Origin: Candidatus Coatesiibacteriota bacterium
GTDB lineage: Bacteria > RBG-13-66-14 > B26-G2 > WVWN01 > G020348885
Direction of reading: 5' to 3'
NCBI GenBank assembly: GCA_020348885.1
Contig: CP070755.1
Coordinates: 902,164 to 937,005 of the forward strand
DNA length: 34,842 nucleotides
The translations under genes and the position numbers were made by a program. The notes beneath the pieces are model-generated. The model was not told where the DNA came from and searched no databases. It was given only the letters and a program-made list of their open reading frames with translations. Shown here piece by piece: positions 1 through 2,958 of this stretch; position 1 is the stretch's first letter, and every line of letters begins with the position of its first letter.

Positions 1-1112
1 CCGACCAGTATCGCCGCGTCCAGGCCGCCGATGTCGATCCCCAGCTCCAGCGCGTTCGTGGACGTAACGCCCATCAGCTCGCCTGCGAACAGCCTCTTTT
101 CGATTGCCCGCCGTTCCTCGGGCAGGTAACCGCCACGGTAAGGGCTGAGTAGCTTACCGAGCCGGGGTCCAAGTTCCTCGGCGGCGTATCGATAGATTAG
201 TTCGGCGACGACACGGGAACGGGCGAATGTTATCGTCTGTACGCCGTCGCGGACCAGTTCGGCCATCACCGAAGTCGCTTCCACGTTTGCGCTGCGGCGC
301 CGCCCCAGCTCGCGGTCCACGAACGGCGGGTTGAGGAGCACGAAATACCGTTCGCCCCTGGGCGAACCGCTTTCGCCTACGACCTCGACGGGCGCCCCGA
401 CCAGTTTCTCGGCGTGGTCGCCCGGGTTGGCCACCGTTGCGGAAGCCATGAGGTACTGCGGCGCGGCGCCGTAGTGGGTCAGGACGCGTTCCAAGCGCCT
501 GAGTACGTTCGCGACGTTACTCCCGAAGATGCCCCGGTACGCGTGCAGTTCGTCGATAACCACATATTTCAACCCGGCCAAGAACCGGGCCCAACCCGCG
601 TGATGGGGCAATATCCCGGCGTGAAGCATATCCGGGTTGGTTATGACCGCGTTGGCCTCGCCGCGGATTTTACGCCGAAGGTGAACCGGCGTATCGCCGT
701 CGTAAACGCCCGGACTCACCCGGCGACCCAGCGGCGGCGAAAGTTCGAGCAAGCGGTTCAGGTTGCGGAGCTGGTCCTGGCTCAGCGCTTTGGTGGGATA
801 CAGGAAAAGGGCCGACGTGCCGTCGTCGTCGAGCATCGCCTCGAGAACAGGTGCAAGGAACCCTATCGTTTTACCGCTGGCCGTCGGCGTTACTTGCAGT
901 ACGTTCGAACCGTCGCGGGCGTACGAAATCGCGTCGGCCTGGTGGCTGAAAAGCCGGGATACGCCCGTATGGGCCAGGGCCGACGCTATCGGCTCGGGTA
1001 AAGGCATCCCCAATTCGCCATAAACGGCCTCCCTCCCTTCGACGTGCTCGACGTGGGCGACGGCGTCGGGCCGGGAAGCTATCAATTCGTCTATGAAACG
1101 CTCGATCGTCAT
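1..1112 (-). CDS. YprA/MrfA-type DEAD/DEAH helicase, partial (N-terminal 370 aa)
   Basis: Superfamily 2 ATP-dependent helicase of the YprA/MrfA (DUF1998-type) group, cut by the left edge of the window. Reading the minus strand from ATG 1112 gives 370 codons with no stop. Motif I is TPTASGKT (residues 75-82), motif II is DELHAYRG (187-194, a DEAH variant typical of this group), motif III is SAT (224-226), and the second RecA domain begins with TFARSR and continues to the motif V region STNALELGIDIGGLD. The cysteine-containing C-terminal DUF1998 domain would lie outside the window. The start is 6 bp beyond the stop of the glycosylase gene, so the two are probably co-transcribed. MrfA in Bacillus acts in mitomycin C damage repair; a repair role here is inferred from the family and the neighbour. 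Confidence 0.9.
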   Translation of the reverse strand, partial: MTIERFIDELIASRPDAVAHVEHVEGREAVYGELGMPLPEPIASALAHTGVSRLFSHQADAISYARDGSNVLQVTPTASGKTIGFLAPVLEAMLDDDGTSALFLYPTKALSQDQLRNLNRLLELSPPLGRRVSPGVYDGDTPVHLRRKIRGEANAVITNPDMLHAGILPHHAGWARFLAGLKYVVIDELHAYRGIFGSNVANVLRRLERVLTHYGAAPQYLMASATVANPGDHAEKLVGAPVEVVGESGSPRGERYFVLLNPPFVDRELGRRRSANVEATSVMAELVRDGVQTITFARSRVVAELIYRYAAEELGPRLGKLLSPYRGGYLPEERRAIEKRLFAGELMGVTSTNALELGIDIGGLDAAILV

Positions 1113-1118
1113 ATATTG

Positions 1119-1778
1119 TTATGTCGGTAGAAGTCCCTCCAATGGGCAACCTTCGCACTTCGGCTTCGGCTTACAATAGAGATGCCCGCACTTAACGAGT
1201 AGCGCGTGGAACTTGTTGAACATAACGGTATCCGGCTCCAGATTATCCTCGAAAACGGCCTTTACTTCGTCGTAACCGGCTTCCTCCTGCGCCAGTCCGT
1301 GGCGGCCGAGTATTCGGTGGGTATACGCGTCTACGGCGAAGGTCGGTATGCCCGCGGCATATAGAAGTATGCTATCGGCCGTCTCCGGCCCTACGCCGTT
1401 CACGGAAAGTAACTTACCGCGGGCTTCGGCAACGGGCATATCGGCCAAGGCCTCGACCCGGCCGCCGCACTCGGCCCAGAGGAACTCCATCAGCGACTTC
1501 AGGCGCCGCGCTTTTACGTTGTAGTAACCGGCGGAAACGATATAGCCGGCCAGCTCTTCGGCCGTCACGTTTCGCAGGGCTTCCGGCGAAAGCAGCTCCG
1601 CATCCTTGAGCCGCCCAATCGCCTTCTCGACGTTGCGCCAGGACGTGTTCTGGGTGAGGACCGCGCCGACGGCGATCTCGAAGGGCGACTCACCCGGCCA
1701 CCACCCCGGGTCGCCGAACGCGGCTTCGAGCCGGCGGTATATTTCGGTCAAACGTTCTTTCGTCCGACTGCCGTACAA
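1119..1778 (-). CDS. Endonuclease III-related HhH-GPD DNA glycosylase (COG2231-like)
   Basis: Base-excision-repair glycosylase of the HhH-GPD superfamily, 219 aa. LTQNTSWRNVEKAI (residues 41-54) and the hairpin SVNGVGPETAD (125-135) followed by FAVDAYTHRI place it with the endonuclease III-related proteins that include MagIII. The catalytic Asp is D150. The Lys that makes endonuclease III a bifunctional lyase is Glu here (E132), so I expect a monofunctional glycosylase. Four cysteines close the protein (C197, C202, C208, C211), with spacing C-x4-C-x5-C-x2-C, unlike the C-x6-C-x2-C-x5-C of E. coli Nth; they may still bind a 4Fe-4S cluster. The gene lies 14 bp after the small membrane protein and 6 bp before the helicase. 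The substrate is unknown. Confidence 0.88.
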   Translation of the reverse strand: MYGSRTKERLTEIYRRLEAAFGDPGWWPGESPFEIAVGAVLTQNTSWRNVEKAIGRLKDAELLSPEALRNVTAEELAGYIVSAGYYNVKARRLKSLMEFLWAECGGRVEALADMPVAEARGKLLSVNGVGPETADSILLYAAGIPTFAVDAYTHRILGRHGLAQEEAGYDEVKAVFEDNLEPDTVMFNKFHALLVKCGHLYCKPKPKCEGCPLEGLLPT

Positions 1779-1792
1779 GGATTTAAGCGCGG

Positions 1793-2224
1793 TTATTCAA
1801 AGGTCCCGTCGTAGAACGACTTAAAACGCCGCCGTTCGTATCGGGGCGCGACGGCGAACAGAAAAACTATCCCGACGATACCTACCACTATAGCGGCTAC
1901 CGAACCCACCAACCCGAGTGAACGTCCCGCCACCATTGGCGCTCCCGGCGACGTTACTAACGCGTATCCGTGGAGGCCTACCGCGGCCGTTAGCGCTGGT
2001 AAAGCGAACCACCGCCCAGTCCCCCGTTTGAACGGCAGGAGCAGAGCCGAGAGTAGAAACAACGTCGCTTCGCCTACCGTATAGGCCCGCCAGGAAAAAG
2101 GCGCCGCTGTCCACGGGTACCCGAAAGCGCCCTCGATGTCGGCGATTAGGAAAACGGCCCAAACGAAAAGTACGGCCGCCAGGATAAGGGTTCCCCGTAT
2201 AACGTTCTTTTCGCTTTTCTCCAT
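1793..2224 (-). CDS. Small four-helix membrane protein, unknown function
   Basis: A 143-aa integral membrane protein with about four hydrophobic segments (roughly residues 10-29, 48-66, 74-92 and 102-126) and a basic C-terminal tail (RYERRRFKS). I recognise no family. ATG 2224 follows its promoter very closely: the -10 hexamer ends at 2244, so transcription should begin near 2237 and the leader would be only about 12 nt with no clear Shine-Dalgarno. It is the first gene of the probable operon with the glycosylase and helicase. Any link of the membrane protein to DNA repair is inference from position only. Confidence 0.7.
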   Translation of the reverse strand: MEKSEKNVIRGTLILAAVLFVWAVFLIADIEGAFGYPWTAAPFSWRAYTVGEATLFLLSALLLPFKRGTGRWFALPALTAAVGLHGYALVTSPGAPMVAGRSLGLVGSVAAIVVGIVGIVFLFAVAPRYERRRFKSFYDGTFE

Positions 2225-2243
2225 AGATTAGAAAGAGTATAAA

Positions 2244-2272
2244 AATATACTCAACCGGGGTTGAGTAGTCAA
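2244..2272 (-). promoter_or_regulatory. Sigma-70-type promoter of the membrane protein-glycosylase-helicase operon
   Basis: On the minus strand TTGACT (2272-2267) and TATATT (2249-2244) are separated by exactly 17 bp. Transcription would start near 2237, about 12 nt before ATG 2224. The whole spacer is taken up by the palindrome described separately, which implies repression by a DNA-binding protein. Confidence 0.75.
2249..2266. promoter_or_regulatory. Operator-like palindrome inside the promoter spacer
   Basis: ACTCAACCGGGGTTGAGT is a perfect inverted repeat: 8-bp arms (2249-2256 and 2259-2266) around a 2-bp centre. It fills the space between the -35 and -10 hexamers. A second inverted repeat, GAGTATA-AAAA-TATACTC (2235-2252), overlaps it and covers the -10 and start site. 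Such placement is typical of repressor operators; the regulator is not identified. Confidence 0.65.
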
Positions 2273-2360
2273 GGTAAACTGGGAACGGACACGCCAATAA
2301 GCTCAAACTTAACGGCTTTTAAAGCGGAAGCCGATTGATACGAAAACACCGGGAACACCA

Positions 2361-2929: not shown

Positions 2930-2958
2930 ATTATAGACGCGCTTACTTCGAGTGTCAA
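2930..2958 (-). promoter_or_regulatory. Perfect consensus sigma-70 promoter
   Basis: On the minus strand TTGACA (2958-2953), a 17-bp spacer, then TATAAT (2935-2930): a full match to the vegetative consensus. Transcription would start near 2923, giving a leader of about 77 nt for the membrane protein starting at 2846. Confidence 0.85.

Follow-up and report, generated by a model that had tools for sequence, protein, structure and literature searches.

LexA changes its recognition sequence from one bacterial group to another. By the count of a 2021 paper, 17 LexA motifs have been reported (PMC8565304), among which the Bacillus box reads CGAAC-N4-GTTCG and the Escherichia coli box TACTG(TA)5CAGTA (review table, PMC9578287). 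The Balneolaeota offer a precedent for detecting new LexA motifs in little-studied phyla through genome comparison; the regulon there includes lexA and recA, TLS polymerases, a radical-SAM protein and a helicase (PMC7739468). In the Bacteroidetes, a non-canonical SOS motif specific to that group is read by a regulator that is no LexA homologue (PMC8565304).

Here we describe a palindrome that is very probably a LexA operator (SOS box) of the form TACTCAAC-N4-GTTGAGTA, judging from sequence comparison, located in the promoter spacer of an operon in a window of 34,842 nucleotides (the whole stretch of DNA analysed) from a Candidatus Coatesiibacteriota genome. With the box of Bacillus subtilis and other Gram-positives it shares the AAC-N4-GTT core and the spacing, and both occur in promoters of lexA and repair genes; it differs by a C for G beside the core (CAAC/GTTG, not GAAC/GTTC) and by longer conserved arms, TACT...AGTA (PMC9578287). 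The GAAC/GTTC half-sites of the B. subtilis type were found neither in the window nor in class-mates, where the half-sites are CAAC/GTTG, and sites of the GAAC-N4-GTTC type stand before lexA in the outgroup genomes G014 and G016. The 20-bp length and the outer TACT...AGTA are common to the E. coli box, however the inner part is CAAC-N4-GTTG here and a G-(TA)5-C centre there (PMC9578287). As in the Balneolaeota, a divergent motif from a little-studied phylum was reconstructed from genomes, though theirs is a direct repeat, TTACACATATTTTWTACATA, with binding seen by gel shift, whereas the present box is predicted (PMC7739468). The group-restricted motif of the Bacteroidetes is likewise comparable, except that here the relatives encode a TIGR00498 LexA beside the box (PMC8565304). 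An earlier note on this DNA had remarked that the palindrome differs from the familiar LexA boxes; it does differ from both the Bacillus and the E. coli forms, and in the open-access literature we found no report of CAAC-N4-GTTG for LexA or of its combination with TACT/AGTA arms, which is weak evidence of absence.

The palindrome, TACTCAACC-GG-GGTTGAGTA, is 20 bp long with 9-bp arms. The perfect 18-bp repeat that the earlier note had placed in the spacer between TTGACT and TATATT (2249-2266; 8-bp arms, 2-nt centre) was confirmed, and one further pair extends it to the full 20 bp. On the minus strand, the two hexamers are separated by a 17-nt spacer and fit the sigma-70 hexamers at 10 of 12 positions. 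The palindrome fills this spacer, sharing one base with TTGACT and two with TATATT, and the predicted operator overlaps the promoter between -35 and -10, the position expected of a LexA operator. The promoter faces the first operon gene, whose start codon is at 2224. The second inverted repeat described in the earlier note also exists, but it has no counterpart in the lexA promoters of the relatives and is probably an incidental by-product of the AT-rich -10 region. The predicted 5′ leader of the first operon gene measures about 12 nt and holds no Shine-Dalgarno-like sequence (window 2224-2249), whereas clear ones precede the neighbouring genes at 2846 and 3100. A perfect TTGACA-17-TATAAT promoter was also noticed on the minus strand at window 2930-2958, before the membrane-protein gene 2361-2846. 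The coordinates of the features are collected in Table 1.

Table 1. Features of the predicted SOS box, its promoter and the operon behind it (window coordinates).
Feature	Position	Strand	Remarks
YprA/MrfA-type DEAD-box helicase, N-terminal half	1..1112	-	TIGR03817; continues past the window edge into an assembly gap
HhH-GPD DNA glycosylase, TTG start	1119..1778	-	in sequence between endonuclease III and MagIII
143-aa protein, four hydrophobic segments, first operon gene	1793..2224	-	no family; no detectable homologue among 60 other genomes
Second inverted repeat GAGTATA-AAAA-TATACTC	2235..2252	.	real; absent at lexA promoters
-10 hexamer TATATT	2244..2249	-	same register as TATAAT of the G002 and G003 lexA promoters
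Predicted LexA (SOS) box TACTCAAC-CCCG-GTTGAGTA	2248..2267	-	exact at 16/16 conserved positions of the G002, G003 and G006 lexA-promoter sites; top matrix score in 275 kb
-35 hexamer TTGACT	2267..2272	-	same register in the G002 and G003 lexA promoters
Weak hairpin, candidate terminator of gene 2361-2846	2313..2333	-	28 nt past the stop, a typical position in this genome; folding not better than shuffles, z -0.86

The gene content named in the earlier note (a membrane protein, an HhH-GPD glycosylase and a YprA/MrfA-type helicase) was borne out, with the helicase present as its N-terminal part only, the gene being broken by 100 N at L035:9065-9164, just outside the window. Genes resembling ftsE/ftsX lie beyond this gap and are perhaps not true neighbours. 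The operon as a unit is not conserved in relatives, and the glycosylase of the order-mates has different neighbour genes. A glycosylase scan of genome contigs gave 80 loci from other phyla, none of them near-identical to relatives, and an Rfam search of the window returned no family except a tRNA. Other palindromic elements were noticed elsewhere. The palindrome GGTATCGTT-AA-AACGATACC at L043:2288-2307, which is not GC-rich, likewise occupies a promoter position, 15 nt ahead of a gene on the minus strand, and is possibly another operator. Two hairpins spaced by about 20 nt, ACCGCCTGCTnnAGCAGGCGGT and CCCCGGCTnnAGCCGGGG, are paired at L042:17933-17994 and, in opposite order, at L043:18389-18450, as in an interspersed palindromic repeat.

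What decides the case is recurrence at the lexA genes of relatives rather than palindromy alone. The core TACTCAAC-N4-GTTGAGTA is exact in only four of the 290 genomes searched, with one copy in each, and these four places are the window and the lexA promoters of G002, G003 and G006, relatives in the same class; about 0.0006 occurrences per 2.6 Mb genome are expected by chance under uniform base composition. A mismatch-tolerant search of 20 other genomes gave perfect palindromes with this core in the same three relatives. The agreement extends to the promoter: over the composite TTGACT-ACTCAACnnnnGTTGAG-TATAwT (-35, box, -10), the window and the G002 lexA promoter are identical at 26 of 29 bases, and two of the three lexA promoters agree with the window promoter at about this level (26/29). 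In the class-mate G005, the lexA promoter carries the variant TTGACA-TCGCAACGGATGTTGTG-TATACT, with the box CGCAAC-N4-GTTGTG. The box in lexA's own promoter, the mark of autoregulation, is found exact in G002, G003 and G006 and as this variant in G005. The proteins encoded behind these boxes score above the curated cut-off of TIGR00498 (LexA), and the Ala-Gly cleavage site, Ser119 and Lys156 are all conserved in them; the G003 protein was not scanned with TIGR00498 and is 96% identical to that of G002. In total, LexA with cleavage site and catalytic Ser/Lys is encoded by four class-mates.

Related sites stand before other repair genes. G005 has them before dinB, the thpR-recA pair and sbcDC, and G006 has a second site, before dinB. 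In the genome under study, the exact 18-position form has no second copy, and a search with all 18 positions gave two matches with three mismatches (720525 and 1081390), uninformative by themselves. Sites with at most two mismatches number four, against 0.68 expected. One precedes a VOC-family (glyoxalase-fold) gene with the same 17-nt spacer layout, and another a radical-SAM gene matching TIGR03916 (putative DNA modification/repair radical SAM protein). The two-mismatch site at 1081390 has no clear role; it overlaps a coding region (3′ end), and a gene for a secreted protein follows after 139 bp. The uvrA gene has a three-mismatch site 31 bp upstream, within TTGACA-16-TATAAT; about 10 sites with three mismatches are expected by chance in 2.6 Mb, thus the case for the uvrA site rests on its position. 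No good box was found at this genome's own recA and dinB. A matrix was also built from eight SOS-gene sites of the relatives only, none from the present genome; in 275 kb of the latter, the window site scores highest, at 20.8 bits against 13.8 for the next site and at most 14.6 in the reversed-sequence control. Altogether, a related site precedes dinB in G005 and G006, thpR-recA and sbcDC in G005, and uvrA and the radical-SAM gene in the present genome, as expected for core SOS genes. Two adjoining similar VOC-family genes were seen at L154:4909-5849, and a predicted box, AACACAACATCAGTTGAGTA, lies in the spacer of the second one's promoter.

The earlier note had proposed looking for recurrence upstream of lexA, recA and other repair genes, and such recurrence was found: the copies at lexA in three relatives are exact, and degenerate ones precede dinB, thpR-recA and sbcDC in relatives as well as uvrA and the repair-type radical-SAM gene here.

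The LexA gene itself was not found in the present assembly: neither the LexA DNA-binding domain (PF01726), nor a LexA protein with a class-mate sequence as query, nor an S24 domain (PF00717) gave a meaningful score. The best S24 match (E 0.018) was rejected, its translation being a signal-peptidase-like protein. The assembly is a MAG, about 90% complete and with contigs joined by runs of 100 N, therefore lexA may be missing from the assembly, and we infer that the organism still has the gene. In the order-mates G001 and G004, lexA was not detectable either and no box is better than three mismatches, while G002 and G003 of the same genus have both lexA and boxes. This looks like a joint loss of regulator and sites, though G004 is only 78% complete. 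The putative recognition helix of LexA in the class reads GPRAAFEH, GPRAVFDH or TVRGAYDH; in G016, from another phylum, it reads SPSTVHKI, and the site before lexA is GAAC-ATAT-GTTC. From these few sequences, the change of helix appears to accompany the C-for-G change in the box.

Other explanations of the palindrome were weighed against this comparison. Seven palindromes with arms of at least 9 occur in the 35-kb window, so that such arms are not rare there and a palindrome alone carries little proof; chance is nonetheless hardly credible when 16 positions coincide exactly with those of three lexA operators, the promoter register is also the same and the expectation per genome is as low as given above. 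An intrinsic terminator of the upstream gene 2361-2846, made of the hairpin and the minus-strand stretch TATTTTTATA behind it, would fit the terminator-like score, the T-rich tail and the folding of the 36-nt stretch, which is better than that of shuffles (z -3.26). However, the palindrome lies 94 nt past the stop and its stem has three G-C pairs, whereas the terminator-like palindromes of this genome are mostly GC-rich and lie 15-45 nt past the stop; it is 24 nt ahead of a start codon, and a weak hairpin closer to the upstream stop is available (Table 1). Since terminator function does not account for the same sequence at lexA promoters either, the palindrome is unlikely to act as an intrinsic terminator, a reading to which we give a very slim chance.

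The remaining two explanations take the operator as real and question its reader. A different dimeric repressor, local or global, might share the sequence with LexA by coincidence, for which one could cite the absence of lexA from the assembly and the single exact copy in the genome, as for a repressor with one target. We consider this quite improbable, given that the same 16 positions are exact only at lexA in three relatives and that related sites stand at dinB, thpR-recA and sbcDC; as is well established, lexA and these genes have LexA as their common regulator. It is also improbable that the box is a relic, or has been adopted by a different repressor, following loss of lexA in the lineage. 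The failure to find lexA here and in the order-mates G001 and G004, of which one is 97% complete, would agree with such a loss, however those order-mates have lost the boxes too, while the present genome keeps a perfect palindrome and further sites at repair genes, and an assembly of this completeness with 100-N joins makes a missed gene a simple explanation.

We therefore return to the LexA operator. Since the box before the operon matches the lexA box of the relatives, DNA damage probably induces the operon, acting through a LexA site of a form that we have not found described. Following the known SOS mechanism, a LexA dimer would occupy the spacer from the -35 to the -10 hexamer and keep RNA polymerase off the promoter; damage would lead RecA, bound to single-stranded DNA, to set off LexA self-cleavage, and the operon would then be expressed. 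The guess of the earlier note, a lineage-specific SOS-like damage operator, is thereby supported at the level of sequence comparison. A wider proposal, which we regard as doubtful though worth stating, is that the class uses an undescribed LexA motif, with outer arms like those of the E. coli box and a core like that of Bacillus, read by an altered recognition helix, and that in this organism the motif controls an operon headed by a lineage-specific SOS membrane protein (e.g., for a division or envelope checkpoint) coupled to the glycosylase and the YprA-type helicase.

The candidate motif comes from an uncultivated class and stands beside a LexA whose putative recognition helix is unlike that of known relatives, so that motif and helix may be studied jointly, with the order-mates that seemingly have neither lexA nor boxes as a natural comparison. 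The predicted box further points to SOS control of a YprA/MrfA-type helicase and a glycosylase in this lineage, and may offer a regulatory handle on a membrane protein without known family.
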